From an uncultured Bacteroidales bacterium (GTDB taxonomy: Bacteria; Bacteroidota; Bacteroidia; Bacteroidales; Paludibacteraceae), in contig CADCBB010000012.1 of NCBI GenBank assembly GCA_902799555.1, forward strand, positions 1-47,514: DNA of 47,514 bases, read 5' to 3'. Shown here one piece after another: positions 1,870-40,405 of the stretch. The position numbers and the translations under genes are program-made. Position 1 is the first letter of the stretch. Every line of letters begins with the position of its first letter. The notes under the pieces were generated by a model. The model was given only the letters and a program-made list of their open reading frames with translations. It made no database searches and was not told the origin of the DNA.

Positions 1870-1905
1870 CGTCATAACGTCATGACGACATAACGACATT
1901 ACGAC
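1870..1905. repeat. 8-nt tandem array, CGTCATAA word
   Basis: About 4.5 imperfect copies of the 8-nt unit CGTCATAA (CGTCATAA, CGTCATGA, CGACATAA, CGACATTA, CGAC) fill the gap from just after the stop codon to the base before the next ATG. Confidence 0.85.
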
Positions 1906-1906
1906 A

Positions 1907-2398
1907 ATGAAAAAATTATCATTTATCATAGCCGCTTTCGCAATGATTTGTCTTGCGTCTTGCGGAACCAAAAGCTCTCAAGCGTACTATGACGCGCCGA
2001 GCCAGTTACTCAGTTCCAACTACGATGGCACATTTGTCATTCGCACGCAGGTACGTGCCCGCAATGCTGCTATCGCCTTCACCGATGCACAACGCAAAGT
2101 AGTGCAAGAGGTTATTTTTGACGGTATCCAATCCGCTCACTCCGGAACAGAGGGACTCAAGCCGCTCTGCTTTGACAAGAATGCCAAAGAGAAACACGAG
2201 GATTATTTCCGTGTGTTCTTCCAAGACAACGGTCCGTGGAAAAAATATGTTGACCTGCGTGACAAACGTACAACCACGACCCGTTACCAACGTGACGGTC
2301 GTCAGATGATCGAGACCGTAACTGTTTCGGTAGACCGTGCGGCTCTCAAAGATCGTCTCGTGGCAGATGGTATCATCCCGCCCGGAGGACGCTATTAA
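1907..2398 (+). CDS. exported lipoprotein, paralogue of the preceding gene
   Basis: A 163-residue protein with a lipoprotein signal peptide: hydrophobic FIIAAFAMICLAS followed by Cys at residue 19. The mature part shares the layout of its upstream neighbour (the gene at 1372), including DYFRVFF near residue 102 and the C-terminal helix RAALKDRLVADGIIP. The pair therefore arose by duplication, with one copy soluble or periplasmic and the other membrane-anchored. The 5' gap is entirely occupied by an 8-nt tandem array. The function is not known. Pairing of a lipoprotein with a soluble paralogue, followed by three more exported proteins, suggests subunits of one envelope complex. Confidence 0.72.
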   Translation: MKKLSFIIAAFAMICLASCGTKSSQAYYDAPSQLLSSNYDGTFVIRTQVRARNAAIAFTDAQRKVVQEVIFDGIQSAHSGTEGLKPLCFDKNAKEKHEDYFRVFFQDNGPWKKYVDLRDKRTTTTRYQRDGRQMIETVTVSVDRAALKDRLVADGIIPPGGRY

Positions 2399-2416
2399 AG
2401 TTGAAAGTTGATAGTT
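2396..2416. repeat. 7-nt tandem array, AAAGTTG word
   Basis: Two full and one partial copies of AAAGTTG start on the stop codon of the preceding gene. The same word recurs at 31463-31486 (minus strand) and 34615-34643. Just downstream, 2439-2454 holds a short inverted repeat TTTGAC/GTCAAA. Confidence 0.65.
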
Positions 2417-2464
2417 CTTAACCCTAAAGGGTACGATTATTTGACAAGTCAAATTTTGAAAGTT

Positions 2465-3415
2465 ATGAAAAAGTCAATATTTACTCTCGCATTGGCGCTG
2501 GTAGCGTTGGTAGCGAGCGCACAGATCAAGAAACCGGAATTGATGGTGATTCCGTCCGATGTATGGTGTATCTCCAACGGTTATTACACCGAAGTAGAGA
2601 ACATGGGAATGACCACCAAGGTACCCAATTACAAACAAGCGCTGCAAGAGAACATGGGTCTCAAGGTGGCGATTGCCAAGATCAACGACCTCATGGCAGA
2701 GCGTCAGTTCCCGCTTAAGAGCCTTGAGCAGACACTCAAGAACATCGAGCAACAACGCATGGAGGACAACCTCACGATGAGCAAGTCCGGCAACGAATTG
2801 GCAGAGTCTCCTCTTGACGAAGTAGCACGTATGGCCAAAGCGGATATCATCCTCGAACTCAGTTGGGAGATGAAAGACTTCGGTCCCAAACACTCGCTGA
2901 CTTATATCCTCGAGGCCCGCGATGCCTATACCGCTAAAACCATCGGCTCTTCGGCCGGTACGGGTGCTCCTTCCATCTCCGCTGATGTAGATGTACTGCT
3001 GGAAGAAGCCATCGTTGCCAACATGGATAACCTCAACAACCGTCTCATGGATCATTTCACCGAGATGCAGAATATCGGCCGTGAGATAAGCCTCGATATC
3101 AAGGTATTCGCCAACAACGCCCGCGGTATTGACCTGGAGAGCGAGTTCGGCGGAGAGGAGTTGGTGGATCTGATTGAGACCTGGTTGCAACTCAACACGG
3201 TGCAAGGCCGTTTCACCCGTGAGTACTCCAGCGAGAACGTAGCCCGTTTTACGCAGGTACGTATTCCTGTTTACGACGAACGCGGACGCGCTATCGATGC
3301 GAACGGCTTCGCTAAACAGTTGACCAAACACCTCAAAGGCGAACCGTTCTATATCCCCGCAAAAGTGCTTGTCAAAGGTCTTGGAAGAGCGGTTATTATC
3401 CTTGGTGAGAAATAA
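2465..3415 (+). CDS. DUF6175-like exported protein
   Basis: The start is the ATG at 2465, which opens a signal peptide (KKSIFTLALALVALVASAQ); the upstream extension of the frame runs through intergenic repeat and is not credible. The 316-residue protein shows the KPELMVIPSDVWC start, a predicted helical region (residues 50-110), then LAESPLDEVARMAKADIILEL. From memory this matches the Bacteroidetes family DUF6175. The central part, with an A-x-AD-I-I-x-x-L core, resembles the nucleotide-free LpoB/TolB-like fold, which is inference. It sits third in a five-gene exported cluster. The biochemical role is unknown. Confidence 0.72.
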   Translation: MKKSIFTLALALVALVASAQIKKPELMVIPSDVWCISNGYYTEVENMGMTTKVPNYKQALQENMGLKVAIAKINDLMAERQFPLKSLEQTLKNIEQQRMEDNLTMSKSGNELAESPLDEVARMAKADIILELSWEMKDFGPKHSLTYILEARDAYTAKTIGSSAGTGAPSISADVDVLLEEAIVANMDNLNNRLMDHFTEMQNIGREISLDIKVFANNARGIDLESEFGGEELVDLIETWLQLNTVQGRFTREYSSENVARFTQVRIPVYDERGRAIDANGFAKQLTKHLKGEPFYIPAKVLVKGLGRAVIILGEK

Positions 3416-3420
3416 AAAAC

Positions 3421-3456
3421 CTCGTCATATCGACATAACGTCATAACGTCATAACG
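3421..3456. repeat. 8-nt tandem array, CGTCATAA word
   Basis: Four near-perfect copies of the 8-nt unit CGTCATAA lie between the DUF6175-like stop codon and the ATG at 3467. The unit is identical to that at 1870-1905 and 35164-35183. Confidence 0.85.
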
Positions 3457-3466
3457 AAAAATCATT

Positions 3467-4405
3467 ATGAAAAAAATCTTTTCTATATTCGTAGCCGCGC
3501 TGATGAGCGCAACTATGATGGCTGCAGAGACGGAGTATCTGCCAATATCCGTTTACGCGCTCGATGAGACCGAGAGTTTTCCTGCCGGTGCCAAAGCGAT
3601 GATTGAGAATAAGTTGACCCAACTGCTCACCCAAAACGGCATAGCAGGTATGGATTATCTCGGTCAGTTCGTCCTCACCGTTTCCACGACTCCGCTTGAC
3701 AAAGATGTTATCCCCGGACCTCCAATGAAGATTTCGGAGAAGATGGAGATGAACCTTTATATCGTGGATGCTTATGCCAAGACGATCTTCAGTTCTACTT
3801 CCATGACCGTACGTGGTCTGGGTGAGACGGAGAACAAATGCTATCTCAATGCCATCAGCCATATGCCGCTGCAGACTCCGCAGATGGCACAGTTCATCAA
3901 GGATGGCAAGGCAAAAATCATCGAATACTATGATCACGAGGCAGAGGCTATGCTGAAGAAAGCACGTTATTTAGCTCAGCAGAAGAATTACGAAGAGGCA
4001 TTGTCTATCGTCACCCTCATCCCGCAACAAAGCAAGCATTTCGATGCTGCTTTAGCGGCAGGTCTGGAGATTTATCAGATGTATATCAACAACGAGTGTG
4101 TAAAGAACCTCGCGGCTGCTCGTCAGGCATGGGCTGCAGAGCAGAACTCGAAGGGTGCATATGCCGCAGGTGAATTCCTAGCGAACATTCTCCCGGACGC
4201 AGGTTGTTACGACGAGGCGATGGACCTCTATAATGAAATCAAGGGTAAGGTGCTTGACGATTGGAAGTTTGAGATGAAGAAATACCAGGACGGTATTGAC
4301 CTCGAGAAACTGCGTATCGACGCTGCTCGCCAGGTAGGCGTTGCGTATGGAAGACATCAACCGGCTCAAACCACTTCCATCGAATTCCTCAGAACGTTAC
4401 TCTAA
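3467..4405 (+). CDS. exported LpoB/FlgT-like protein with helical repeats, cluster gene four
   Basis: A 312-residue protein with a signal peptide (KKIFSIFVAALMSATMMAA). Residues 20-150 form an alpha/beta domain: LPISVYALDETESFPAGAKAMIENKLTQLL, then IAGMDYLGQFVLTVST. This resembles the LpoB/CsgG-related domain used by periplasmic scaffold proteins. Residues 160-300 are all-helical with TPR-like spacing (ARYLAQQKNYEEALSIVTLI, then a second copy around AGCYDEAMDLYNEIKGKVLD). The stop overlaps the next ATG by one base (TAATG), so the two are translationally coupled. It looks like a scaffold or binding subunit. No enzyme motif is visible. Confidence 0.7.
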   Translation: MKKIFSIFVAALMSATMMAAETEYLPISVYALDETESFPAGAKAMIENKLTQLLTQNGIAGMDYLGQFVLTVSTTPLDKDVIPGPPMKISEKMEMNLYIVDAYAKTIFSSTSMTVRGLGETENKCYLNAISHMPLQTPQMAQFIKDGKAKIIEYYDHEAEAMLKKARYLAQQKNYEEALSIVTLIPQQSKHFDAALAAGLEIYQMYINNECVKNLAAARQAWAAEQNSKGAYAAGEFLANILPDAGCYDEAMDLYNEIKGKVLDDWKFEMKKYQDGIDLEKLRIDAARQVGVAYGRHQPAQTTSIEFLRTLL

Positions 4406-5724: not shown

Positions 5725-5725
5725 C

Positions 5726-5762
5726 AAAGAAGGGCTCGTCTCCCGACGAACCCTTTCTTTTT
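5726..5762 (+). terminator. rho-independent terminator of the exported cluster
   Basis: A stem-loop with arms AAGAAGGG-x-TCGTC and GACGA-x-CCCTTCTT (one mismatch, one bulge) around a TCCC loop ends in a T-run. The following 5763-5850 holds nothing I can identify. Confidence 0.8.
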
Positions 5763-8086: not shown

Positions 8087-8653
8087 ATGGCAAAGTTTTT
8101 AATCGTTGGTTTAGGCAATATAGGTGACGAGTACGCAGGTACGCGCCATAACATCGGCTTTATGATGATCGATGCTTTTGCTGCATCGAAAGACGCCAAG
8201 TGGGAAGATAAGCGGTACGGGTTCGTGGCGAAATGTCGTGTTAAGAATGCCGAGCTCGTACTGCTTAAACCTTCCACGTATATGAACCTCAGCGGTAACG
8301 CCGTGCGTTATTGGTTGCAACAGGAGAAGATACCGGTGGAAAACATGCTGGTACTGGTGGATGACCTCAACCTACCGTTTGGTACGATCCGGATTCGCAA
8401 ACAGGGTTCTAACGGCGGTCATAACGGACTCGGTAACATTCAATCCGTTTTAGGTACCGAGAACTACGCACGCGTACGTTTCGGTATAGGAAACGAGTAC
8501 ACACGCGGAACGCAGATCAATTTTGTGCTCGGCGAATGGACCGATGAAGAGAAAAAGACCATCGATGAGCGTCTCAAAGTGACCTCCGAGATCATTCCGT
8601 CCTTCTGTCTTCAAGGCATCGACCGCACCATGAATCAGTTTAATAACAAATGA
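8087..8653 (+). CDS. pth: peptidyl-tRNA hydrolase
   Basis: Releases tRNA from peptidyl-tRNAs dropped by the ribosome. The 188-residue protein matches the family length. It shows [22 protein letters not shown] with the conserved Asn11 and catalytic His21. The conserved [10 protein letters not shown] block, then [12 protein letters not shown] with the family Asp, and GSNGGHNGL follow. Its last codon overlaps the next start as ATGA, so it heads a tightly packed run pth, S4 protein, DUF4924, nth. No separate promoter is clear in the 8 bases after the rplY terminator; some transcription may read through that terminator. Confidence 0.96.
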
Positions 8654-9060
8654 GCGAAGTTCGTGTCGATAAATATCTCTGGGCTATGCGGATCTATAAG
8701 ACCCGCTCTATCGCCGCTGATGCCTGCAAGAACGGGCGTATCACGATGAATGGCGTCCAACTCAAGCCCAGCCGCACCTTTAAGATCGGCGATACGTTCA
8801 ACGTGCGCAAAGGTCCGATCACTTATACCTATAAGGTACTTCAACTGACGGAGAACCGCTTAGGCGCCAAACTCGTGCCCGAATACATGCAGGATTGCAC
8901 GTCTCCGCAACAACTCGAACTGCTCGAACTGGCACGCCTGGCCGGTAATGGCGGTAGGGATAGAGGCACCGGAAGACCGACAAAGAAAGACAGACGAGAT
9001 ATTGAGGTTTTTATGTCTGAGATTGACGATTGGACGAATGACGATTTAACGATTGATTGA
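8650..9060 (+). CDS. S4-domain RNA-binding protein, Hsp15-like
   Basis: A 136-residue protein whose first 60 residues are an S4 domain ([20 protein letters not shown], then [20 protein letters not shown]), the arrangement of heat-shock protein 15 (HslR), which binds stalled 50S subunits carrying peptidyl-tRNA. Position directly after pth, with a 4-base overlap, fits a role in rescue of stalled ribosomes. The basic middle ([16 protein letters not shown]) is typical. The last 15 residues are acidic and are encoded by a tandem GATTGACG-type array, so this tail has probably been altered by the repeat rather than conserved. Confidence 0.85.
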
Positions 9061-9067
9061 CGATTGA
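9021..9067. repeat. 7-8-nt tandem array, ACGATTG word, running through a stop codon
   Basis: About six imperfect copies of ACGATTG/ACGATTTA cover the last codons of the S4 gene, its stop codon and the gap before DUF4924. The same word flanks the four-helix-bundle gene at 24609-24671 and, inverted, 25035-25096. Confidence 0.8.
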
Positions 9068-10244: not shown

Positions 10245-10255
10245 CAGTCGATATT

Positions 10256-10275
10256 ACGTTATTACGTAATAACGT
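10256..10275. promoter_or_regulatory. 20-bp perfect palindrome in the recA leader
   Basis: ACGTTATTACGTAATAACGT is identical to its reverse complement. It lies 12 bases after the -7 box and 29 bases before the recA ATG, so it is transcribed or at the initiation site. It could be a repressor operator, an RNA hairpin, or a product of the TTACG-type tandem word in the same leader (10251-10281). Confidence 0.5.
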
Positions 10276-10304
10276 TATTACGAACATTTAAAAATCACAA
10301 TATT

Positions 10305-11345
10305 ATGGCAGAGAAACAAGCACCATCGGCAGATAAGCTCAAAGCATTGCAGGCTGCGATGGCGAAGATTGACAAAGAATATGGCAAAGGTGCCATCATG
10401 AAATTGGGTGACGAGAGTATTGAGAACGTTCCCGTTATTCCGACCGGAAGTCTGGGTCTGAACTACGCGTTGGGCGTAGGCGGTTACCCGAAAGGACGTA
10501 TCATCGAGATCTACGGCCCGGAGTCATCCGGTAAGACCACTCTCGCTATCCACGCGATGGCGGAGGTGCAAAAACAAGGTGGTATTGCGGCGATCATCGA
10601 TGCCGAGCATGCTTTCGACCGTTTCTATGCAGAGAAACTCGGTGTGAACATCGCTGAACTGCTGATTGCTCAACCGGATAGCGGTGAGCAAGCACTGGAT
10701 ATCGCGGACGAGTTGATTCGTTCGGCAGCTGTGGACCTCATCGTTATTGACTCTGTAGCGGCATTGACGCCGAAAGCAGAGATCGCCGGTGAGATGGGAG
10801 ATAATAAGGTAGGATTGCAGGCACGTCTGATGAGTCAGGCGCTGCGTAAGATGACCGCTTCTGTGAATAAAACCGGTACTACCGTCATCTTCATCAACCA
10901 GTTGCGAGAAAAAATCGGTGTGATGTTCGGTAACCCTGAGACCACTACCGGCGGTAACGCCCTCAAGTTCTACGCTTCCGTTCGTTTGGATATCCGTCGT
11001 ACGGGTCAGATCAAAGACGGTGAAACGATTAAGGGCAACCAAGTGCGCGTGAAAGTAGTGAAGAACAAAGTAGCGCCTCCGTTCAAGAAAGCAGAATTCG
11101 ATCTAATGTTCAACGAAGGTATCTCGCGTATCGGTGAGATTTTGGACTTTGCGGTTGCTACCGAGGTTATCAAGAAGAGCGGTTCCTTCTTCAGTTATGG
11201 AGACACCAAACTCGGTCAGGGTCGCGACAAAGTGAAAGATGTGTTGGCAGAGAACCCGGATCTGTGCGATGAACTGGAAGCAAAGATCAGCGAGAAAGTG
11301 AAAGAATTGGGTCTTGAGGCCGTTCTCAGTAAGATTGGAAAGTAA
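10305..11345 (+). CDS. recA: recombinase RecA
   Basis: Forms filaments on single-stranded DNA for homologous recombination and SOS signalling. The 346-residue protein has Walker [10 protein letters not shown] at 71-79, Walker [13 protein letters not shown], loop 1 and loop 2 regions ([10 protein letters not shown] and [31 protein letters not shown]) and the C-terminal regulatory domain. The ATG at 10305 is used because the frame further upstream crosses the promoter. No LexA gene is in the window. The leader palindrome is the only visible candidate control site. Confidence 0.98.
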
Positions 11346-11371: not shown

Positions 11372-12880
11372 ATGGATAGCGTCCAGTATATTCTTTCTCC
11401 CCGCGAGGCGTTTATCGCTGAGCAACAATGGCGGGTGGTGAAACGTTCAGTAGATGCACGGCAGCGAGAGTTGCGCGTGCATCTTACTATTCTAACGGAC
11501 GAGAACGGAAAGCCTATCCCGAAAGATGCGCCTATTCCGCTCTATGCACCGCCTGTCTTCCAAGACGTACATCAGGCAAAGCGGTCAGTGACTATCATTG
11601 GCGCAGGTCCGGCAGGACTTTTTGCGGCATTGACATTGCTTGAGCATGGGATCAAACCGATTATTTATGAACGGGGAAAGGAAGTGAGTGAACGCAAGAA
11701 AGATATCGCTTTGCTGAATCGAAATGAGGGTTTGAATCCTGAATCCAACTATTGTTTCGGCGAAGGTGGGGCAGGGACATTCTCGGATGGAAAACTTTTC
11801 TCCCGCTCGAAGAAAAGGGGAAACATGCAGCGGGTAATGGAACTATTCCATTATTTCGGTGCACCCGACACGGTGCTGTACGAAGCACATGCCCATATCG
11901 GTTCCGATAAACTCCCCTCTATCATTCGCAATATGCGAGAATGTATCCTTGCGCATGGCGGAGAGATTCACTTTGAGACTTGCGTGAGAAGTCTCAAAGA
12001 GTGGAAAATGGAAAATGGAAAATGGAAAATTCCATTAATCTTGGCGATCGGCCATTCAGCACACGATACGTATCGGATGTTAGCGGAAGAGGGTGTGAAG
12101 TTAGAGACGAAGGGTTTTGCGATGGGCGTTCGTGCAGAACACCCGCAGGCACTCATCAATAAATTAATGTACCATCTTAAGCCATCAGCCATCAGCCGTC
12201 AGGATTCAGAACTTATTGAGTACGTCGGCAATGCCTCGTATAGTTTAGTAACGCAGGTCGATGGTCGAGGCGTTTATTCGTTCTGTATGTGTCCGGGCGG
12301 ACATATTGTGCCGGCAGGCAGCGAAGCGGGTAGTTGTGTTGTGAATGGAATGAGTGCGAGTCATCGTAATTCACCTTATGCCAACTCAGGAATGGTCGTT
12401 CAGATCAATCCGGAAGATATACCCGGCGACGATCCGCTACGTGGATTAGCGTTCCAAGAAGAATTAGAACGTCTCGCGTTTGAGCATGGCGGTCCGCAAG
12501 CCCAAGCTCCCGCCCAACGTCTTCGCGATTTTGTAGAGGGTCGTGCCTCCAAAGATCTGCCGGCATGCAGTTACTTGCCGGGCATTATACCGAGTAGGTT
12601 GGACCAATGGTTACCGGCGCATATCGGTAAACGCTTGCAACAGGGTTTTGGGGATTTCGATAAGAAATACCCGGGCTTTCTGACGAATGATGCTGTCATC
12701 GTAGGTGTGGAGAGTCGAAGCAGCAGTGCGGTACGTATCCCGCGAGATCCGGAAACCTTACAATCGGTGAGTACTCCCCTGCTCTATCCCTGCGGCGAAG
12801 GAGCAGGTTACGCAGGAGGCATCACGAGTTCTGCTTTGGATGGCATCAATGCAGCACTCAAGATTGCGGAGTTGGCATAA
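11372..12880 (+). CDS. FAD-dependent dehydrogenase, COG2509 type, carrying two in-frame tandem arrays
   Basis: A 502-residue flavoprotein with the dinucleotide fold VTIIGAGPAGLFAA (GxGxxG at 77-82). The ESNYCFGEGGAGTFSDGKL block is typical of the uncharacterised FAD-dependent dehydrogenases grouped in COG2509. The C-terminal FAD-contact motif LYPCGEGAGYAGGITSSALDG is also present. The substrate is unknown. Two short stretches are alien to the family pattern: residues 211-220, encoded by four copies of the 7-nt unit TGGAAAA, and residues around 270-277, encoded by three copies of GCCATCA-like 7-nt units. The reading frame is intact, but copy-number change in either array would shift it. It starts 26 bases after recA. 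Confidence 0.9.
   Translation: MDSVQYILSPREAFIAEQQWRVVKRSVDARQRELRVHLTILTDENGKPIPKDAPIPLYAPPVFQDVHQAKRSVTIIGAGPAGLFAALTLLEHGIKPIIYERGKEVSERKKDIALLNRNEGLNPESNYCFGEGGAGTFSDGKLFSRSKKRGNMQRVMELFHYFGAPDTVLYEAHAHIGSDKLPSIIRNMRECILAHGGEIHFETCVRSLKEWKMENGKWKIPLILAIGHSAHDTYRMLAEEGVKLETKGFAMGVRAEHPQALINKLMYHLKPSAISRQDSELIEYVGNASYSLVTQVDGRGVYSFCMCPGGHIVPAGSEAGSCVVNGMSASHRNSPYANSGMVVQINPEDIPGDDPLRGLAFQEELERLAFEHGGPQAQAPAQRLRDFVEGRASKDLPACSYLPGIIPSRLDQWLPAHIGKRLQQGFGDFDKKYPGFLTNDAVIVGVESRSSSAVRIPRDPETLQSVSTPLLYPCGEGAGYAGGITSSALDGINAALKIAELA
12002..12031. repeat. 7-nt tandem array TGGAAAA x4 inside a coding region
   Basis: Four perfect copies of TGGAAAA plus TT lie inside the FAD-dehydrogenase gene and encode a Trp/Met/Lys-rich loop. 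Seven is not a multiple of three, so gain or loss of one unit would break the frame. Confidence 0.9.
12181..12203. repeat. 7-nt tandem array GCCATCA x3 inside a coding region
   Basis: GCCATCA, GCCATCA, GCCGTCA, GG in the same gene as the preceding array. Three units add 21 bases, keeping the frame. Confidence 0.85.
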
Positions 12881-12888
12881 TTATTGAT

Positions 12889-12927
12889 ACTAGATTCCTA
12901 GAGCCCTAGGATCCTAGAACCCTAGAA
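12889..12927. repeat. 8-nt tandem array with CCTAG core
   Basis: Four to five copies of TAGAxxCC (the x positions vary) occupy most of the gap between the FAD dehydrogenase and the GH28 gene. Confidence 0.8.
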
Positions 12928-14489: not shown

Positions 14490-14788
14490 ATGAATGAGAT
14501 GTCGGTATGTCGCTATTTGAAGATGATACTTTGAAACTTTGAAACTTTAATGATACTTTATAAAAGATTGTAAATAAATAGCTTAACAAAGAAAGTATCA
14601 AAGTTTCATAGTCTCACGACAAATTTTAAAAGCGACACAGCGACATGACAAATTTTGAATGATGGATTGAGCCGCTTCGCTGAATGATGGGAATGATGAG
14701 GTTAGGGAGACGGAGGGGTAATAACGAGCAAATAACCAAGTAATATCTAAGTAATAACTAGCTGTTGATAGCTAAAAGGGAAAACAAA
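14490..14788. other. gene-free interval of degenerate repeats and a long hairpin
   Basis: No credible gene is seen on either strand. The sequence is mostly short degenerate words: ACTTTGAA repeats (14526-14548), GCGACA (14632-14646), AATGATG (14658-14700) and GTAATA/ACTAAG-like words (14726-14762). TGAAACTTT and GATACTTT (14540-14559) can pair with AAAGTATC and AAAGTTTCA (14592-14608), giving a 17-bp stem with a three-base bulge. Confidence 0.6.
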
Positions 14789-24604: not shown

Positions 24605-24608
24605 AATT

Positions 24609-24671
24609 ATTGACGATTGACAAATTTACGATGTACGATTTATGTACGATTTGATTAATTTACGATTGACG
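24609..24671. repeat. tandem array, ACGATTGAC/TACGATT words, plus orientation
   Basis: At least five copies of ACGATT with variable joints (ATTGACGATTGAC, TTTACGATG, TACGATTTATG, TACGATTTG, TTTACGATTGAC) fill the gap between topB and the four-helix-bundle gene and include the last codons of the latter. Confidence 0.8.
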
Positions 24672-25034
24672 TTCCTTTGCATCTATTGTTTTCCTTATTG
24701 TTAAAATGGAACGTGTTACAATTCGTCTTAATTCAACACTTTCGTCATACAAGTCTTCCACTTGTGTCCGAGGCAGAAGTTCTGCATCCATAATGACGCT
24801 TAACCAATGTGACGTTTCATCTATCTCTTCCTCTACCATTTTCAGTTTGTTTAGAAAATCTTTATTCGATTTTGCCAAACAGGCTGCTCTATAATTAGCA
24901 GCCGGAGAAGTCCCGGAACGAACTATCTGCTTTGCAATTGCATTTCCCGCAATGTTATTCGGCATTGTATTTACAAGCCCAATAATTTTGATAGAAAACT
25001 TTCTAAATCTCTCTTTCAGTTCGTCTGTAGTCAT
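24660..25034 (-). CDS. four-helix-bundle protein (23S rRNA intervening-sequence/S23 type)
   Basis: A 124-residue, all-helical protein. The first helix (KERFRKFSIKIIGLVNTMP) leads to the family block AIAKQIVRSGTSPAANYRAAC and then FLNKLKMVEEEIDETSHWL. This is the pattern of the four-helix-bundle family first described from intervening sequences in 23S rRNA genes and related to the Avd accessory protein of retroelements. Members are scattered in genomes and their role is not settled. Here it sits between two tandem arrays of the same word in opposite orientation, which suggests it was acquired as a cassette. It interrupts an otherwise sensible wza, wzc, topB order. Confidence 0.88.
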   Translation of the reverse strand: MTTDELKERFRKFSIKIIGLVNTMPNNIAGNAIAKQIVRSGTSPAANYRAACLAKSNKDFLNKLKMVEEEIDETSHWLSVIMDAELLPRTQVEDLYDESVELRRIVTRSILTIRKTIDAKERQS

Positions 25035-25096
25035 AAATCGTCAATATTTTTCAATTGTCAATCAATCGTACCTCGTCAATCGTCCAATCGTCAATC
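25035..25096. repeat. tandem array, GTCAATCGTC word, minus orientation
   Basis: Five or more copies of the reverse complement of the word at 24609-24671 (TCGTCAAT, TCAATTGTCAAT, AATCGTAC, CTCGTCAATCG, TCCAATCGTCAATC). It starts directly upstream of the four-helix-bundle ATG. Confidence 0.8.
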
Positions 25097-25105
25097 AAAA
25101 GAATC

Positions 25106-28317: not shown

Positions 28318-29478
28318 ATGACACCGCAAGAATTATTAAGTATCAAGCAGCGTTTTGGGATCATCGGACAGAGTCCGCTTCTCAACCGCGATATCGAAAT
28401 AGCCGTGCAAGTTGCGCGTACCGATTTAAGTGTGCTCATCACCGGAGAATCCGGTGTCGGTAAAGAGCATTTCCCGAAAATCATACACGCTTTCTCGGCA
28501 CGCAAACATGGACCGTATTTCGCCGTTAACTGCGGAGCTATCCCGGAAGGAACCATCGATTCGGAACTCTTCGGACACGAGAAAGGCGCCTTCACGGATG
28601 CCAAAAATGAACATAAAGGTTATTTCGAGATAGCCGACGGCGGTACGCTCTTCCTCGACGAAGTAGGTGAATTGCCGCTTCAGACCCAAGTGCGCTTACT
28701 GCGTGTATTGGAAACCGGCGAATACCTGCGCATGGGATCCAGCCAGGTACGAAAAACGAATGTACGTGTCGTGGCGGCTACCAACCTCAATATGCGGCAA
28801 GCCACCGATGACGGGCGTTTCCGCGAAGACCTCTACTACCGTCTCAATACCATTGAGATACGCGTACCTGCCTTGCGTGAACGCAAAGAGGACATCCCCC
28901 TGCTCTTCCGTAAGTTTGCCGTGGATTTCTGCACGCGCTACCAGATGCCGCCCCTCTCGCTTAACGAGGAAGCGACACGCTTGCTGCAAAACAGCTATTG
29001 GAGGGGAAACATCCGTCAACTCAAGAACTTAGCAGAACAGATCGCAACCATCGAGTTAGACCACCAAATAAGCGCCGAGACCTTACAGCGTTACTTACCC
29101 GCCGAGGAGAACCAACAGGGACTCGTCCTTCGCGCGCCGAAAGAACCCGCCGGAAAAGACTACTCGCACGAGATCAGCATTCTCTATAACATGGTGATGC
29201 AGAACAAGAAAGACCTCGAGGAACTCAAACAAATGCTGCTAAGCGGACGGCAAGAAGTCATCTCCGCACCGCGCCATGAAGAAGAAGTGCATCCCTCTCG
29301 TGACACCGAAGAGATCATACCTATCGAAGAAGATAGCCTCCGTGTGGACGACAGCGAGAAAGAACTCATCAGACGCGCACTCGAACTCTCTGGAGGTAAT
29401 CGCAAAGAGGCGGCTGCACGACTCGGACGATCCGAAAGAACATTATACCGCAAAATCAAGGAGTATGGCTTGGAGTAA
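28318..29478 (+). CDS. sigma-54-dependent-type AAA+ transcriptional activator without receiver domain
   Basis: Family members use ATP to open sigma-54 promoters. The 386-residue protein begins almost directly with the AAA+ domain: Walker A GESGVGKE (43-50), the sigma-contact loop GAFTDA (90-95), Walker B LFLDEVGE (111-118), the sensor ATNLNMRQA and the arginine-finger region FREDLYYRLNTIEIR. An acidic linker (about 270-340) leads to a Fis-type helix-turn-helix (GGNRKEAAARLGRSERTLYR). There is no N-terminal sensory or receiver domain, so activity may be set by expression or a partner. The canonical loop is GAFTGA; here Gly is replaced by Asp. The gene order regulator, lptE, secG is, I believe, common in Bacteroidales. 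Confidence 0.9.
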   Translation: MTPQELLSIKQRFGIIGQSPLLNRDIEIAVQVARTDLSVLITGESGVGKEHFPKIIHAFSARKHGPYFAVNCGAIPEGTIDSELFGHEKGAFTDAKNEHKGYFEIADGGTLFLDEVGELPLQTQVRLLRVLETGEYLRMGSSQVRKTNVRVVAATNLNMRQATDDGRFREDLYYRLNTIEIRVPALRERKEDIPLLFRKFAVDFCTRYQMPPLSLNEEATRLLQNSYWRGNIRQLKNLAEQIATIELDHQISAETLQRYLPAEENQQGLVLRAPKEPAGKDYSHEISILYNMVMQNKKDLEELKQMLLSGRQEVISAPRHEEEVHPSRDTEEIIPIEEDSLRVDDSEKELIRRALELSGGNRKEAAARLGRSERTLYRKIKEYGLE

Positions 29479-30049
29479 TCAAAAACACGGCAACGACACG
29501 GTATCGACACGGTATCGGAATGTGGTTAAGTACTTGGTAAGTACAGGTCAAGTACTATGCATCTGCGGCTTGATCCTATTCTCGTTCACCGGCTGTTCGA
29601 TCAGTTATAAGTTCAACGGCGCCAACATCAACTACCAGACCACCCACTCTATCTCCATCGCTGACTTTCCCAACAATGCCGCGATGGTGAACCCGAACTT
29701 GAGTCCCAAACTGTCGGAAGGCATCCGTGACCTTTTCCAACGGCAGACACGACTGCAAGTCCTCAACAAAGGTGGCGATCTGGAACTCGAAGGAGAGATC
29801 ACCGGATACGAAATCAGCCAAGGAGCTATCGGCGCCAACAGCTATGCTACCGAGAGCAAACTGACCATTCGCGTAACGGTGCATTTTACCAATAATGTCT
29901 ATCCCGAAGAGTCGTTTGATAAGACCTATTCGGCCTCCCAGACCTTCGATGCCAACGTCCTTTTGACGGATATACAGGACGAGTTATGCGACATCATCAT
30001 CACGGAAATAGCCGAAAATATTTACAATGACACCGTTGCAAAATGGTAA
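29465..30049 (+). CDS. lptE: LptE-like lipopolysaccharide assembly lipoprotein
   Basis: LptE plugs the LptD barrel that inserts lipopolysaccharide in the outer membrane. The body fits the Bacteroidetes LptE family: lipobox ICGLILFSFTGC, then SISYKFNGANINY, DFPNNAAMVNPNLSPKLSEG, a strand pair LELEGEITGYEIS, and a C-terminal helix with EIAENIYNDTVAKW. The ATG at 29465 (inside the last codons of the regulator) gives 194 residues but a 44-residue leader to the Cys. A GTG at 29522 would give a normal-length leader. The extra leader is encoded by two 11-nt tandem arrays, so the GTG start may be the real one. Confidence 0.85.
   Translation: MAWSNQKHGNDTVSTRYRNVVKYLVSTGQVLCICGLILFSFTGCSISYKFNGANINYQTTHSISIADFPNNAAMVNPNLSPKLSEGIRDLFQRQTRLQVLNKGGDLELEGEITGYEISQGAIGANSYATESKLTIRVTVHFTNNVYPEESFDKTYSASQTFDANVLLTDIQDELCDIIITEIAENIYNDTVAKW
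29485..29556. repeat. two 11-nt tandem arrays at the lptE 5' end
   Basis: 29485-29518 holds copies of ACACGGTATCG; 29526-29556 holds copies of AAGTACTTGGT/AAGTACAGGTC. They lie directly after the regulator stop codon and within the possible LptE leader. Confidence 0.8.
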
Positions 30050-30096: not shown

Positions 30097-30148
30097 CAGC
30101 CGATTTTGTTAAATTTGAAATTATAAATCATAAATTATAAGTAAAAAC

Positions 30149-30535: not shown

Positions 30536-31465
30536 TTACAGACTCTTGATATACTTGTCTGCCTCAATCGCCGCTTTAGCGCCTGAACCGGCTGCCACGA
30601 TCGCCTGACGGTAATGAGGATCAGCACAGTCTCCGGCCGCAAAAACACCCGGCACATTCGTCCGCGGACTATCGCCATCTACCAGAATATAACCCTCTGC
30701 ATCGCGATTCAAATAGTCCTTGAACAAATCCGTATTCGGATGATGACCGATTGCCAGGAAGAAGCCGTCAATAGCGATATGACGCATTTCCTCATCCGCT
30801 TCACCCTTGCGATAAATCAGATCGGCGCCCTGTACCTTACCTTCACCGGTCAACTGAAGCGTGTTATGCTCGAAAAGCACCTCAATCTTCGGGTTATTGA
30901 GCACGCGTTGCTGCATGATCTCCGACGCACGCAAGTACGGTTTGCGAACGATCATATACACTTTCTCACAAAGGCCAGCCAAGTAGTTCGCCTCCTCGCA
31001 TGCCGTGTCACCTCCACCTACTACGGCTACCGTTTTCTTGCGGTAGAAGAACCCGTCGCAAGTCGCACAGGCACTCACGCCTCGACCGCGGTACGTACGC
31101 TCCGACTCTAAACCTAAATACTTCGCCGAAGCTCCCGTTGCGATAATAACCGCATCCGCTTCATATTCCATCTCATCTTCTACGATCACCTTCTTCGGGG
31201 ATGTAGAAAAATCCACTTTCGTCACAATACCCGACACAAACTGCGTACCGAAACGCTCTGCCTGACGACGCATATCGTCCATCATCGTGAACGGTTCTAC
31301 ACCATCCGGATAGCCGGGGAAATTTTCCACTTCGGTCGTAGTCGTCAACTGCCCGCCCAACTGCGGACCCTCAATCAGCACCGGCTCCAAGTTCGCACGA
31401 CTCGCATAGATAGCGGCCGTGTATCCTGCCGGACCTGAACCTATAATCAAACACTTTACTTTCAT
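30536..31465 (-). CDS. trxB: thioredoxin reductase
   Basis: Reduces thioredoxin with NADPH through FAD and a redox disulfide. The 309-residue protein shows the FAD fold CLIIGSGPAGYTAA, the active site Cys133-Ala-Thr-Cys136 followed by DGF, the second nucleotide fold VAVVGGGDTACEEA, and the C-terminal FAD motif VFAAGDCADPHYRQ. The cofactor-selecting segment reads VRKPYLRAS, keeping one of the usual basic residues of NADPH-type enzymes. It lies upstream of the lolA-like gene's stop on the same strand, downstream of ftsK and lolA, so it may be the end of that operon. Confidence 0.96.
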   Translation of the reverse strand: MKVKCLIIGSGPAGYTAAIYASRANLEPVLIEGPQLGGQLTTTTEVENFPGYPDGVEPFTMMDDMRRQAERFGTQFVSGIVTKVDFSTSPKKVIVEDEMEYEADAVIIATGASAKYLGLESERTYRGRGVSACATCDGFFYRKKTVAVVGGGDTACEEANYLAGLCEKVYMIVRKPYLRASEIMQQRVLNNPKIEVLFEHNTLQLTGEGKVQGADLIYRKGEADEEMRHIAIDGFFLAIGHHPNTDLFKDYLNRDAEGYILVDGDSPRTNVPGVFAAGDCADPHYRQAIVAAGSGAKAAIEADKYIKSL

Positions 31466-31486
31466 TCTTTCACTCTTTCAACTTTA
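31463..31486. repeat. 7-nt word array at the lolA-like/trxB junction
   Basis: On the minus strand, AAGTTGA, AAGAGTG, AAAGAATG, AAAG fill the gap from the LolA-like stop codon to the trxB ATG. The word is related to the arrays at 2396 and 34615. Confidence 0.6.
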
Positions 31487-34606: not shown

Positions 34607-34614
34607 CGAAAAAA

Positions 34615-34643
34615 AGTTGAATGTTAAAAGTTGAAAGTTGAAA
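34615..34643. repeat. 7-nt tandem array, GTTGAAA word
   Basis: GTTGAAT, GTTAAAA, GTTGAAA, GTTGAAA in the divergent gap between ftsK and the RseC-like gene, where the -33 box of ftsK would be expected. Confidence 0.8.
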
Positions 34644-34698
34644 TTTTCGTACTTTTTGACAAAAAAGGTGTAATTTTTTATAAAAAGTACGCGCGCAC

Positions 34699-35163: not shown

Positions 35164-35183
35164 GTCGTCATAACGTCATAACG
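35164..35183. repeat. 8-nt tandem array, CGTCATAA word
   Basis: GTCGTCATAACGTCATAACG directly after the RseC-like stop codon; same word as at 1870-1905 and 3421-3456, some 31-33 kb away. Confidence 0.8.
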
Positions 35184-35629: not shown

Positions 35630-35678
35630 CCAAATGGTCAAATAAATGGTAAATGGTAAATGACCAAATGGTAAATGG
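35627..35678. repeat. 7-nt tandem array, AATGGTA word, starting on the rnfB stop codon
   Basis: About seven imperfect copies of AATGGTA/AAATGGTC fill the whole gap between rnfB and rnfC, beginning with the TGA stop itself. Confidence 0.88.
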
Positions 35679-35682: not shown

Positions 35683-37038
35683 ATGAAGACATTTAAAATA
35701 GGCGGAGTTCATCCGCATGACAACAAACAATTCTCCGCACACCAGCGTATCACGGAGTGCCCGCTGCCTAAGCAGGCCATCATCCCGCTCGTGCAACATA
35801 TCGGTGCACCGGCGCAGGCTGTTGTGGAAGTCGGAGCGAAAGTAAAAGTAGGCGAACTGCTGGCGAAAGCCGGTGGATTCGTGAGTGCGAACATCTGCTC
35901 GCCGGTAAGTGGTACCGTTACCAAGATTGGTGATTGGACCGACGCTTGGGGTGCCCCTGGGCAGGCCATATTCATCGATGTAGAAGGAGATGTGTGGATG
36001 CCGGAGATCGACCGTACGCCGGACCTCATCCGTTCGTGTGCCCTCGAGCCCAAAGCGATCATCGATAAGATCGCAGCTGCCGGTATCGTAGGTCTCGGTG
36101 GTGCTTGCTTCCCGACCCACGTCAAACTGCTGCCGCCTCCGGGTAAGAAAGCAGAAGTGCTCATCGTCAACGGTGTAGAGTGCGAACCCTACCTGACCTG
36201 TGACCATCAGCTGATGTTGGAGCATGGCGAAGAGATCATCGTCGGTATCGAGATTCTCAAGCGTGCCCTCGGTGTAGATCGCGCCATCATCGGTATCGAG
36301 AACAACAAGAAGGATGCGATCGAGCATATGACCAAGTTGGCGCAATCCAAACTGGGCATCGAGGTCGTTCCTCTCAAACTCAAATATCCGCAAGGTGGAG
36401 AGAAACAACTCATCGACGCTTGTATCGGTCGTCAGGTACCTTCGGGTGCGCTGCCGATTGAGGTAGGCGCTGTAGTGGATAACGTCGCTACGATCTATGC
36501 CGTTTACGAGGCCGTTCAGAAGAATAAACCGCTCATCAGCCGCGTCATGACCGTTACCGGTAAGAAAGTCGCTAAACCGGGTAACTACTCCGTTCGTTTC
36601 GGTACGCCGATCGAGGAGGTCATCGCCCTCGCAGGTGGTGTACCGGTGGATACCGGTAAGATCATTGGCGGCGGTCCGATGATGGGTCGCGCCATGGATC
36701 ATATCGAAGGCATGCCGGCGAATAAACGCCTCAGCGGCCTGCTCTTCTTGCCCGAAGCGGAATCGATTCGTCCGGAGGAAGAGAACTGTATCCGTTGTGG
36801 TAAGTGCGTTCAGGCTTGCCCGATGGGTCTCGAACCCTATCTGCTCCAGCGAATGAGTCAACTCGAGATGTGGGAAGACTGCGAGAAGCACGACGTCATG
36901 GACTGCATCGACTGCGGTTGCTGCGTCTTCGCTTGTCCTGCCCATCGTCGTCTGCTCGACGGTATCCGTCCTGCCAAAGCAAAAGTCGGCGCTATCCTCC
37001 GCGAACGTGCCGCCGCTGCCGCAGCTGAGAAGAAATAA
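35683..37038 (+). CDS. rnfC: Rnf complex subunit C
   Basis: NADH/NAD-interacting subunit of the ion-pumping ferredoxin:NAD oxidoreductase. The ATG at 35683 gives 451 residues; the longer frame runs through the repeat array. It shows the RnfC N-terminal domain (GGVHPHDNKQFSA), a lipoyl-like segment (GFVSANICSPVSGTV), the FMN/NADH-binding SLBB region (GLGGACFPTHVKL, then NGVECEPYLTCDH), and two 4Fe-4S motifs (Cys369, 372, 375, 379 and Cys408, 411, 414, 418). The length is typical and no extra ferredoxin module has been fused to compensate for the short RnfB. Confidence 0.96.
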   Translation: MKTFKIGGVHPHDNKQFSAHQRITECPLPKQAIIPLVQHIGAPAQAVVEVGAKVKVGELLAKAGGFVSANICSPVSGTVTKIGDWTDAWGAPGQAIFIDVEGDVWMPEIDRTPDLIRSCALEPKAIIDKIAAAGIVGLGGACFPTHVKLLPPPGKKAEVLIVNGVECEPYLTCDHQLMLEHGEEIIVGIEILKRALGVDRAIIGIENNKKDAIEHMTKLAQSKLGIEVVPLKLKYPQGGEKQLIDACIGRQVPSGALPIEVGAVVDNVATIYAVYEAVQKNKPLISRVMTVTGKKVAKPGNYSVRFGTPIEEVIALAGGVPVDTGKIIGGGPMMGRAMDHIEGMPANKRLSGLLFLPEAESIRPEEENCIRCGKCVQACPMGLEPYLLQRMSQLEMWEDCEKHDVMDCIDCGCCVFACPAHRRLLDGIRPAKAKVGAILRERAAAAAAEKK

Positions 37039-37040
37039 AT

Positions 37041-37070
37041 CACCAATTACAAATCACAAATTACAAATAT
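37041..37070. repeat. 7-nt tandem array, AATTACA word
   Basis: AATTACA, AATCACA, AATTACA, AATATA occupy the rnfC-rnfD gap. Confidence 0.8.
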
Positions 37071-37073
37071 AAA

Positions 37074-38060: not shown

Positions 38061-38072
38061 GGAGGTACGACT

Positions 38073-38654: not shown

Positions 38655-38656
38655 CT

Positions 38657-39244
38657 ATGAGTAACGGATTGAAAGTTTTAACGAACGGCATTCTCAAAGA
38701 GAATCCGACCTTTGTACTGGTACTCGGTATGTGTCCGACCCTGGCCACCACCACCAGTGCTATCAACGGTATGTCGATGGGCTTGGCTACCATGTTCGTG
38801 CTCATCTGCTCGAATGTAGTGATCTCGCTCCTCAAGAACCTCATCCCGGATAAAGTACGTATCCCGGCGTTCATCGTCGTCATCGCTACCTTCGTGACCC
38901 TCGTACAGCTCCTTATGCAGGCTTACCTGCCCGCTATCTACGACGTGCTGGGCTTGTTTATCCCGCTGATCGTAGTGAACTGTATCGTTCTCGGTCGTGC
39001 AGAGGCTTTTGCAGCGAAAAACAGCGTAGGCCTCAGCGCACTCGACGGAATCGGTATGGGTCTTGGTTTTACCCTCGCCCTCACCCTTCTCGGTGCAGTT
39101 CGCGAACTGCTCGGAACAGGTGCTTGCTTTGGCTTCCACCTCTTCCCGGATAACTACGGCGCACTGGTCTTCGTCCTCGCCCCGGGTGCCTTCATCGCCC
39201 TCGCTTACTTGATGGTTATTATTAACAAATTACAGAAGAAATAA
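38657..39244 (+). CDS. rnfE: Rnf complex subunit E
   Basis: A 195-residue, six-helix membrane subunit, paralogous to RnfA. The family start (NGLKVLTNGILKENPTFVLVLGMCPTLATT) and the central cysteine (PLIVVNCIVLGRAEAFA) that helps hold the intramembrane iron-sulfur cluster shared with RnfA are both present. The start is two bases after the rnfG stop and the rnfA ATG follows two bases after its own stop, so the block is translationally coupled. Confidence 0.96.
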   Translation: MSNGLKVLTNGILKENPTFVLVLGMCPTLATTTSAINGMSMGLATMFVLICSNVVISLLKNLIPDKVRIPAFIVVIATFVTLVQLLMQAYLPAIYDVLGLFIPLIVVNCIVLGRAEAFAAKNSVGLSALDGIGMGLGFTLALTLLGAVRELLGTGACFGFHLFPDNYGALVFVLAPGAFIALAYLMVIINKLQKK

Positions 39245-39246
39245 TT

Positions 39247-39840
39247 ATGGTATACTTTTTGATTTTCATCTCTGCGATATTTGTTAATAATATCGTATTG
39301 AGCCAGTTCTTGGGTATTTGCCCGTTCCTCGGCGTCAGCAAGAAGATCGACACCGCCATGGGTATGAGTGCCGCTGTGGTATTCGTCCTCACCTTGGCAA
39401 CCGTCGTGACCTATCTGCTGCAGATGTTACTCGTTGCTTGGGGACTCGAGTTCCTCCAGACCATCCTCTTCATCCTCATCATCGCTGCCCTCGTGCAGAT
39501 GATCGAGATCATCCTGAAGAAGATTAGTCCGTCGCTTTATCAGGCACTCGGCGTCTTCCTACCGCTGATCACCACCAACTGCTGTATTCTCGGTGTAGCT
39601 ATTCTCGTAGCTAACGGTACCGAGAAACTGCCGATGGGCGCTGAGCACGGTATGTTAACCGGCACACTCTTCGCTTTCGCAACCGCACTCGGCTTCGGTC
39701 TCGCACTCATCCTCTTCGCAGGTATCCGCGAGCAATTAGCCCTTGCCAAAGTGCCCGAAGCAATGAAGGGCACACCTATCGCCCTTCTCACCGCCGGCCT
39801 CCTCGCCATGGCCTTCATGGGCTTCAGCGGAGTAGTATAA
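39247..39840 (+). CDS. rnfA: Rnf complex subunit A
   Basis: A 197-residue, six-helix membrane subunit paired in inverted topology with RnfE. The start (YFLIFISAIFVNNIVLSQFL, then GICPFLGVSKK) and the central block (PLITTNCCILGVAI) carry the cysteines that ligate the membrane iron-sulfur cluster. It is the last gene of the Rnf operon; a hairpin follows at 39858, then tRNA-Ala. Confidence 0.97.
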   Translation: MVYFLIFISAIFVNNIVLSQFLGICPFLGVSKKIDTAMGMSAAVVFVLTLATVVTYLLQMLLVAWGLEFLQTILFILIIAALVQMIEIILKKISPSLYQALGVFLPLITTNCCILGVAILVANGTEKLPMGAEHGMLTGTLFAFATALGFGLALILFAGIREQLALAKVPEAMKGTPIALLTAGLLAMAFMGFSGVV

Positions 39841-39857
39841 ATTCTATTCAATTAAAA

Positions 39858-39887
39858 GGTACGCGCACGCTCATACGTGTGCGTACC
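39858..39887. other. 12-bp hairpin between rnfA and tRNA-Ala
   Basis: GGTACGCGCACG pairs with CGTGTGCGTACC (one G-U) around CTCATA. On the plus strand no T-run follows, and the tRNA starts three bases later. On the minus strand the stem is followed by TTTTAAT. It may be a weak terminator for either strand or a processing signal for the tRNA 5' end. Confidence 0.6.
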
Positions 39888-39890
39888 TAC

Positions 39891-39964
39891 GGGGTATTAG
39901 CTCATCTGGCTAGAGCGCGACACTGGCAGTGTCGAGGTGAGCGGTTCGAGTCCGCTATACTCCA
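39891..39964 (+). tRNA. tRNA-Ala (anticodon GGC)
   Basis: A 74-nt cloverleaf. The acceptor stem GGGGTAT/ATACTCC includes the alanine identity pair G3-U70. The D arm is GCTC/GAGC, the anticodon stem CGACA/TGTCG has loop CTGGCAG (anticodon GGC), the T arm is AGCGG-TTCGAGT-CCGCT, and the discriminator base is A. CCA is not fully encoded. A run of six T follows. Confidence 0.93.
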
Positions 39965-39974
39965 CATTTTTTCC

Positions 39975-40011
39975 CATCGTCATCTCGTCATGACCTCATA
40001 GCATCATAACG
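39975..40011. repeat. 8-nt spaced TCAT array
   Basis: TCAT occurs every eight bases (CGTCATCT, CGTCATGA, CCTCATAG, CATCATAA, CG). Its last 17 bases, CCTCATAGCATCATAAC (39994-40010), recur exactly at 40389-40405. The following 40012-40130 holds only small hairpins (for example CCGCA/TGCGG at 40070-40084). Confidence 0.82.
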
Positions 40012-40131
40012 AATTTTTGGAACCATACTGGTTAAAACCCACGCTTTGCGGCTAAAAAATCAAAATAAACCGCAAAAAATGCGGCTTAAGATACCGCGAA
40101 TCGTGACATTGCTGATTTGGTGACGAAGAAG

Positions 40132-40380
40132 ATGTTGCGACCTGTACAAGGCAATGTTCGGAATATTGCTTATAATTTGTGTTATGATCCGCATAGTTCG
40201 CTGCCTTTTGATAACGTACATATCGAGGAACATGATGGACAGAAATATATCTGTATTACCTACAAACAACAATCATATAGCGAACGTCTTACAGAAGGCG
40301 ACCTACAGAGCTTGACTCAAGCAGAACGTACGAAAGAGGATATGGCATACAAATACTTCGCTTATCTTGCCTTGTTATAA
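40132..40380 (+). CDS. small hypothetical protein between repeat copies
   Basis: An 82-residue frame from the ATG at 40132 (a GTG at 40120 is an alternative). It encodes a mixed polar protein with a plausible amphipathic beta section (HDGQKYICITYKQQSYSERL) and a C-terminal helix with DMAYKYFAYLALL. No signal peptide and no family are recognised. It is bounded by two exact copies of a 17-base word (39994 and 40389). No promoter of the usual type is seen. It could be a small regulator or a cassette gene; it may also be non-coding. Confidence 0.45.
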   Translation: MLRPVQGNVRNIAYNLCYDPHSSLPFDNVHIEEHDGQKYICITYKQQSYSERLTEGDLQSLTQAERTKEDMAYKYFAYLALL

Positions 40381-40405
40381 CATCCTCTCCTCATAGCATC
40401 ATAAC
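40381..40405. repeat. second copy of the CCTCATAGCATCATAAC word
   Basis: Starts directly after the stop codon of the small ORF. The last 17 bases are identical to 39994-40010. Confidence 0.82.

Follow-up and report, generated by a model that had tools for sequence, protein, structure and literature searches.

What are the short tandem arrays that lie between the genes of an uncultured Bacteroidales bacterium of the Paludibacteraceae, and how did the same repeat word come to stand at places tens of kilobases apart? The DNA that raised this question, called the window below, is a stretch of 47,514 nucleotides (nt), contig 12 of a 2.34-Mb draft genome in 82 contigs (G000, its own genome). An earlier note, made from the letters of the window alone, had described degenerate arrays of 7-, 8-, or 11-nt words at about twenty sites in it. 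SusC/SusD genes and the nearest named records, which are largely rumen or gut metagenome-assembled genomes (MAGs) labeled uncultured Bacteroidales or Paludibacteraceae, place the window in Bacteroidota. We compared G000 with two close relatives (G118 and G015) and with further members of the same genus (G006, G070, G003, G002, G050, G059, and others). We tentatively propose, at slightly under an even chance, that the arrays are a high-density, clade-specific heptanucleotide-repeat sequence, similar to the short tandemly repeated repetitive (STRR) sequences of cyanobacteria, that is copied, rewritten, and lost where reading frames tolerate it.

Arrays were detected with Tandem Repeats Finder (TRF) and an independent self-match scan of the window. 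Genes were predicted with a home-made script, which missed some (e.g., 24660-25034). Array counts vary with the score threshold used in each analysis; gaps longer than 700 nt or 500 nt, depending on the analysis, were excluded before counting, and arrays of other periods were dropped where stated. The two methods found repeats at or within ~30 nt of each coordinate in the earlier note, although some are weak in TRF (2.2 units at 35164, 2.9 at 2396, and 2.0 of the 11-nt unit at 24631). The inverted site is also present but lies at 25062-25096 instead of 25035. We found 40 arrays (score of at least 14) in 145 gaps (38,535 nt) of a 446.5-kb sample of G000 and none in ten dinucleotide-preserving shuffles of the same gaps, a comparison that the earlier note had proposed. 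Periods 7 (16 arrays), 8 (17), and 11 (4) account for 37 of the 40, as had been claimed; periods 9, 10, and 15 occur once each, and periods 5, 6, 12, 13, and 14 do not occur among them. The head-to-tail, degenerate, dispersed 7-nt units are thus joined by a large share of periods 8 and 11. Of the 184 co-directional gaps of 30 to 60 nt in a 1.86-Mb genus sample, 79 contain an array, and 11-nt arrays stand mainly in longer gaps. Gap arrays are also present in some other Bacteroidota, at 0.24 per gap-kb versus 1.78 in G000.

The number of units is similar at any period, about four: the medians are 4.3 (7 nt), 4.0 (8 nt), and 3.8 (11 nt), with the short side of the distribution trimmed because the detection threshold removes short arrays. 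Period-7 arrays are ~30 nt long and hold three whole units in 37 arrays, four in 49, and five in 15. The words are mostly AT-rich, without a G-tract in each unit; the sense G content of the arrays is 0.12 to 0.19. As the earlier note had observed, differences between units are concentrated on fixed unit positions (period-7 concentration, 1416 versus 1122; standard deviation, 21); duplication of variant units can also yield such variation.

Comparison of homologous sites showed filled, empty, and rewritten states. A ~30-nt block with CGTCATAA follows the rseC stop at 35164 in G000; G118 and G015 are without the block and share the leader that follows it. The exchange of words at one gap, for which the earlier note had suggested looking, was found at several places. 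The gap at 52306 of contig 13 holds CGTCATGA in G000, AATTAAG in G118 and G015, CGAGACCA in G006, and no array in G003. Likewise, the rnfC-rnfD gap has a different word in each of G000, G118, and G015 despite flanks that are 95 to 98% identical, and further words were seen by eye across the genus. Inside genes, net insertions of, e.g., 24, 30, 33, 36, 39, and 42 nt were found, and when coding sites were compared, the difference in length was a multiple of three in 170 of 179 cases; the other nine probably reflect extrapolated flank ends or miscalled genes. One coding position carries five array words in five species, two of which differ by one base per unit. The exact unit was absent from the empty homologous site for 47 of 57 arrays.

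We also considered a recombination or mutagenic patch beside changed arrays and rejected it on the pattern of identity between G000 and G118. Identity is 0.850 in the first 15 nt beside changed arrays (0.895 in array-free gaps), 0.896 at 15 to 30 nt (0.913), and 0.953 at 30 to 60 nt (0.921).

Arrays turn over faster than the sequence around them. At 90 to 97% flank identity, a 7- or 8-nt gap array was retained in 40 of 112 comparisons, versus 78% (n = 23) and 86% (n = 36) for non-array 32-nt gap segments. At 86 to 90%, 27 of 212 arrays were retained versus 48% of controls (n = 42). Coding arrays were retained in 10 of 22 comparisons at 90 to 97%, and 11-nt arrays in 8 of 9 at 90 to 94%. About half of the homologous gaps at 76 to 86% flank identity have another array, which argues that arrays are regained as well as lost. 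Comparisons and pairs between relatives are not independent and come from draft genomes of one genus. L087 and L097 were excluded because their contigs are those of the G108 and G134 stretches. L083, the same contig as the G050 stretch, was kept in the non-array control, the concerted-change test, and the first unit-order run; the main retention, empty-site, and unit-order counts were repeated without it, and the non-array control of retention still includes it.

The same words recur far apart, as the earlier note had stated. The exact word CGTCATAACGTCATAA stands at four places in the genome, two of them in the window, and a degenerate pattern that we call family A has 35 matches in G000 (17 forward and 18 reverse, with some sites on both strands). 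Words recur in relatives too: family A has 25 matches in G015, one in each of two other genomes, and none in the other 37 of 41, and the pattern read backwards gave 0. Species also differ in the words that they use. CGWYATDA arrays make up 18 of 111 in G000 and 2 of 103 in G118 (P = 2.6e-4), AATTAAR arrays 2 of 111 and 19 of 103 (P = 3.6e-5), and AGCTAAC arrays 5 of 60 in G015 and 0 in G000 and G118. Small samples can mislead here, since only 2 of 60 arrays in the G015 sample are CGWYATDA and yet the whole G015 genome has 25 pattern matches.

Unit order is shared as well. With near-duplicate records removed, 121 non-orthologous pairs of gap arrays (50 arrays) have a common non-periodic 26-mer, versus 48 pairs when units were shuffled (maximum, 62) and 50 when they were reversed (maximum, 59). 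A pattern scan across the phylum for one gap block matched 1 of 296 genomes. As a separate observation, the gap block TTTTTAATTCGTAATTTTTAATT occurs twice, inverted and ~85 nt apart, in a Bacteroidia genome (L233; G193:C1, 711644 and 711729).

The excess of arrays, their periods, the coding arrays, the word exchange, the faster turnover, the dialects, and the shared unit order in gaps are observations. From the many sites without a seed unit, the shared unit order in gaps, and the dialects, we infer a copying step; which template it uses, and that the arrays have no dedicated function, are likewise inferred. Most new arrays would appear at sites without an exact copy of the word, apparently copied from arrays elsewhere in the genome or genus, perhaps by short-patch, non-homologous template copying; a smaller share may have expanded from a local unit by slippage. 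Arrays already in place would then be rewritten or lost faster than adjoining sequence. Selection would act as a filter, so that arrays stay in gaps, in leaders, and at gene ends when they supply the stop codon, and inside genes only in frame and with stop-avoiding unit variants. Word repertoires would drift until each species had a dialect of its own.

A number of results weigh against this proposal. No donor was traced for any single array, and no copying event was seen. Only 21 of the 121 common-order gap pairs lie within one genome, so the words may be an old stock of the whole genus and not recent copies. Coding arrays share unit order without an excess over the reversed control (23 versus 18.2; maximum, 27). 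Retention of arrays and controls is alike at flank identities of at least 97% (23 of 28 versus 88%, n = 16) and low for both below 86% (5 to 7% versus 7 to 13%). Some arrays may be functional, namely the retained leader arrays (10249 and contig 13:77334) and most 11-nt arrays; the two family-A leader arrays, at 10249-10282 and at 77334-77366 of contig 13, are identical in G118. Changes of all units at one unit position are not well explained by simple copying or slippage. Such concerted change was found in 8 of 45 rows (P < 0.05), and because two pairs among the eight read both ways, these represent about four loci, including G112 (L177) with L088, the coding site 37403-38119 of contig 13, and the ftsK-rseC gap at 34613-34646. 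In one case a unit-specific variant stayed. Finally, the exact unit is present at the empty site for 10 of 57 arrays (e.g., contig 13:14611 in G118) versus 1.9 expected from random draws of arrays; allowing up to one mismatch raises the count to 22 of 57, versus 12.9 expected. These units favor slippage, or loss that leaves a unit behind, for part of the sites.

The excess of exact units at empty sites argues that local slippage plays a part, and slippage alone would have the polymerase tandemly duplicate a 7-, 8-, or 11-nt stretch at each site, after which the copies diverge. A polymerase contact length favoring heptamers has been proposed in literature quoted in PMC4692102. Slippage fits the head-to-tail arrangement, low copy number, and prevalence of period 7, the variation of array length and sequence between close relatives, and, through duplication of variant units, the concentration of differences on unit positions. 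As the sole cause we consider it unlikely. It leaves 47 of 57 empty sites without a unit to duplicate, does not account for the recurrence of word and unit order at unlinked places or for the swap of a whole array for another word at 95 to 98% flank identity, and would give a decaying distribution unlike the mode at four units, though the threshold trims the short side. The earlier note's statement that the arrays are not plain slippage thus stands for most sites and is left in doubt for the remainder.

The earlier note had arrays often beginning on or just after a stop codon. This preference shows for period 8 alone, for which 69% of arrays lie within 3 nt of the stop versus 44% for random placement in the same gaps; for period 7 the figures are 53% and 49%. 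Sense-strand stops are enriched overall (57 sense-only versus 23 antisense-only arrays), and the bias lies within 15 nt of the upstream stop (42 versus 12), with no comparable bias further away (15 versus 11) or in divergent gaps (8 versus 7). Because of this restriction, we concluded that the stop-codon position largely reflects constraint, together with labeling, since a stop-free array would lengthen the open reading frame (ORF) and then count as coding. For the same reason, a function as stop codons in all frames was rejected.

Regulatory or binding arrays, whose words would be read by DNA- or RNA-binding factors of the species, for instance in translation between cistrons, are quite unlikely in our judgment. 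Such a role has been proposed for TAACTGA repeats in PMC4679880. The frequency of arrays in short co-directional gaps (79 of 184), the conservation of certain leader arrays, the concerted changes at about four loci, and the orientation of GTTGAAA-type words in gaps (16 sense and 2 antisense, counted word by array) would all suit selection on the words. Homologous gaps within the genus, however, have different words or none, identical words stand inside coding sequence, AATTAAR words occur in both gap orientations (27 versus 18), and the stop bias is confined to the neighborhood of the upstream stop.

Arrays also lie inside genes and are not confined to intergenic gaps, where the earlier note had placed them. 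In the window, the arrays at 9021 and 29485, both named in that note, and those at 12002 and 12180, which it did not list, lie inside predicted ORFs. We found 170 arrays in 1116 kb of coding sequence of nine genus members; 112 have period 7, and the period of 27 is a multiple of three. For periods 7, 8, 11, and 14 together, the density of coding arrays per Mb is 92 in G000 and 126 in G118. It is 49 in other near clade members, 24 in more distant members, and 42 in 20 further genus stretches, versus 4 (a single array in 272 kb) across 20 stretches from other Bacteroidota. Across the same groups, coding arrays with periods that are multiples of three range from 11 to 47 per Mb. Codon shuffling gave one coding array in total across six groups. 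Density in G000 is 1.78 per kb in gaps and 0.09 per kb in coding sequence, but many arrays are coding nonetheless. As a side observation, some variable coding positions that carry arrays in other species are occupied by short hairpin-like elements (CCTAACCTCCCCACAAGGGGAGGG and similar), as in the G015 homologue (L163) of ORF 11372-12880 and at other coding sites.

One 27-nt coding block, made of AATTAAA units and one AATGAAR unit, occurs in 29 copies in 10 of 61 genus genomes, with eight in G050, seven in G059, and none in G000; a backwards control gave 0. G118, which was outside this draw of 61, also contains copies. Of the 29 copies, 28 fall within open frames of 100 codons or more, all in one frame and strand, and encode [E/K/Q]LKIKNE[K/E]L. 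The variant unit stands where a TAA would otherwise be read. The single frame is enforced, because the other forward frames have stops; the strand is informative, with 28 copies versus 0 in the one open reverse frame. The block is not self-complementary when read directly. The copies in L275, L288, and L295 have no upstream ATG in frame, and those in L275 and L295 stand just before a plausible ATG and may be leader. Ten of the 28 block-bearing proteins were named: RapZ-like, RlmD, AlaRS, DXS, a MATE transporter, a mannose-1-phosphate guanylyltransferase-like protein, galactokinase, GluRS, QueA, and TatD. A homologue, in some cases distant, was at hand for 21 of the 28, and several other species have a different array-like peptide at the block site.

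TatD of G050 carries two array inserts. Both sites are also occupied by arrays in the G059 protein, the first by the same word in a different arrangement and the second by another word, and three TatD homologues are without either array. In a predicted model (mean pLDDT, 82.9), the first insert lies in the loop between a helix and the next strand, and the second extends over the final turn of a helix and the low-confidence stretch that leads to the next strand. This side of a TIM barrel faces away from the active site.

The avoidance of stops in these 28 open frames also bears on an assembly or gene-calling artifact, which might be suspected since nearly all of the genomes are MAGs and the genes come from a home-made script. 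Identical homologous arrays in separate genomes and gap arrays of like type in Paludibacter sp. 221 (L131), a record without the MAG label, point the same way. An artifact is largely refuted, and we give it almost no weight.

The dispersal of the 27-nt block, up to eight copies per genome, its in-frame insertion, and the filled and empty sites would be expected of a mobile element written by a specific enzyme, such as a reverse transcriptase or a transposase associated with repetitive extragenic palindromic (REP) elements (RAYT). We consider this quite unlikely as well. A reverse transcriptase (PF00078) was matched in four of eight genomes, and G006, G070, G108, and G112 bear arrays without a match; Y1_Tnp was above the cutoff in one of the eight and below it in two more. 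These absences are weak evidence, since the drafts are incomplete and the four genomes without a reverse transcriptase are 82 to 96% complete. Neither terminal repeats nor target duplications were noticed by eye. Thus, within the limits of draft genomes, neither a reverse transcriptase nor a RAYT is supported as the writer. A phage vehicle was likewise rejected; six viral-contig scans gave 2, 1, 0, 8, 4, and 33 stretches among 2.9 million contigs (counts only).

A bolder form of our proposal is that the clade has an active repeat-writing process. It would supply any tolerant site, even loops of essential enzymes (in frame), with about four copies of a 7-, 8-, or 11-nt word and rewrite all units of an existing array at one unit position. 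It would draw on a word stock of the species' own, fix the number of units and not the length, and need no reverse transcriptase or RAYT. In this form the proposal is doubtful.

The arrays of the window are listed in Table 1. The ORF at 24660-25034, which lies between topB and a wzc-like gene, belongs to the 23S rRNA-intervening-sequence protein family and is flanked by ACGATTG/ACGATTT arrays in inverted orientation (24605-25105). The topB/wzc-like gap of G118 and G015 is short and without this gene, yet it holds repeat units.

Table 1. Repeat arrays of the window, with their positions, strands, and settings
Array	Position	Strand	Setting and relatives
8-nt array CGTCATAA/CGTCATGA/CGACATAA/CGACATTA	1870..1906	+	Gap filled up to next ATG
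7-nt array AAAGTTG, 2.9 units	2397..2416	+	Overlaps stop codon of ORF 1907-2398
8-nt array, CGTCATAA family	3422..3456	+	
ACGATTG/GATTGAC array (7/8/15 nt)	9021..9067	+	Mostly in 3' end of ORF 8650-9060 (S4-domain protein)
8-nt array CGTTATTA	10249..10282	+	Leader of ORF 10305-11345; G118 identical, G015 one substitution
7-nt array TGGAAAA x4.1	12002..12030	+	Within ORF 11372-12880; encodes WKMENGKWK; common to G118; different sequence, 15 nt longer, in G015
7-nt array AGCCATC	12180..12202	+	Within ORF 11372-12880; common to G118; 30 nt shorter in G015
8-nt array, CTAG plus 4 variable nt	12890..12927	+	7-nt AATTAAR array in this gap in G118 and G015
8-nt array TGAAACTT	14524..14548	.	
11-nt array AATAACCAAGT	14720..14760	.	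Retained in G118 and G015
ACGATTG/ACGATTT array (7/8/11-nt spacing)	24609..24667	.	Left of ORF 24660-25034, runs into its 3' end
Inverted ACGATTG word (CAATCGT)	25062..25096	.	Right of ORF 24660-25034
11-nt array ACACGGTATCG x3	29485..29517	+	Within predicted ORF 29465-30049 (start codon uncertain)
11-nt-spaced TAAGTACTAGG units	29527..29557	+	Within predicted ORF 29465-30049
7-nt array AAATTAT	30111..30140	+	secG leader; G118 and G015 without array, one AAATTAA-like stretch instead
8-nt CTTTCACT units	31459..31480	-	Across start of ORF 30536-31465 (pyridine nucleotide-disulphide oxidoreductase)
7-nt array AAAGTTG	34613..34646	.	ftsK-rseC divergent gap
8-nt CGTCATAA x2.2	35166..35183	+	Part of ~30-nt block right after rseC stop
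7-nt AATGGTA/AATGACC array	35632..35678	+	Spans rnfB-rnfC gap and rnfC start
7-nt AATTACA/AATCACA array	37037..37068	+	rnfC-rnfD gap; other words in G118 and G015
Degenerate CGTCATAA-family array	39975..40011	+	Downstream of tRNA-Ala; read by eye; similar array in G015 (L162)

Among known systems, the STRR sequences of heterocystous cyanobacteria are degenerate heptanucleotide arrays dispersed in intergenic DNA. By this description they differ from ours in phylum and in the prominence here of octanucleotide and 11-nt words and of coding arrays. Rickettsia palindromic elements are small dispersed sequences that stand in frame in many genes at tolerated positions, and they are palindromic and longer. 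We found the same in-frame insertion in many unrelated ORFs, but of ~30-nt tandem arrays without palindromy. RAYT-mobilized REP elements differ again, as no palindromy was noted in the arrays and the Y1 transposase passed the cutoff in one of eight incomplete genomes. In-frame arrays are a source of new peptides in housekeeping enzymes.

The earlier note knew of no named element with these features, but tandem heptamers have been described: heptanucleotide repeats between co-directional genes of Xanthomonas and Nostoc (PMC4692102), heptamer repeats in Beggiatoaceae, cyanobacteria, and five Bacteroidetes (PMC4679880), and hepta- and octanucleotides in Geobacter (PMC2700814). Passages of these three papers leave the origin and spread of the repeats open. 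Our clade allows filled, empty, and rewritten states to be compared directly, with the word differing at the same gap or codons at 90 to 97% flank identity. We found no paper on many-word coding arrays at such density or on word replacement between relatives at one site, in a literature search that most subscription journals lay outside.

The GGGNATC repeats described by Rehm et al. (2015; PMC4692102) are similar in their tandem 7-nt units with constant and variable positions, their genome-wide spread mostly between aligned ORFs, their preference for four units, and the variation in length and sequence between close relatives. As described there, they are one G-rich word type, tied to G-quadruplexes, to which the four-unit preference was linked, and under-represented in coding regions. 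Ours are many mostly AT-rich words with periods of 7, 8, and 11, species dialects, and frequent in-frame coding arrays. That AT-rich words, too, favor four units speaks against G-quadruplexes as the general explanation of this preference.

Fixed consensus families at 16 to 49 dispersed sites, with three to five tandem 7- or 8-nt units, are described for Geobacter metallireducens and resemble our arrays (PMC2700814). They lie between genes, one family also within genes, and are annotated as predicted regulator-binding sites or regulatory elements; the passages on them do not include word turnover.

The TAACTGA repeats of MacGregor (2015; PMC4679880) are likewise sets of heptamers, with two to six copies each, close to starts and stops. 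Passages of that paper describe stops in all three frames, accompanying heptamers of other sequence, and 24 sets in or overlapping 25 ORFs of one genome, with reverse repeats in 11 ORFs, and they consider mobility. Heptamer sets in ORFs and the three-frame stop are therefore known already. Three tandem copies of TAACTGA were found in 1 of 61 genus genomes and not in G000. To this single-word system the present clade adds a multi-word lexicon, word exchange between relatives, a turnover rate, and a density of coding arrays.

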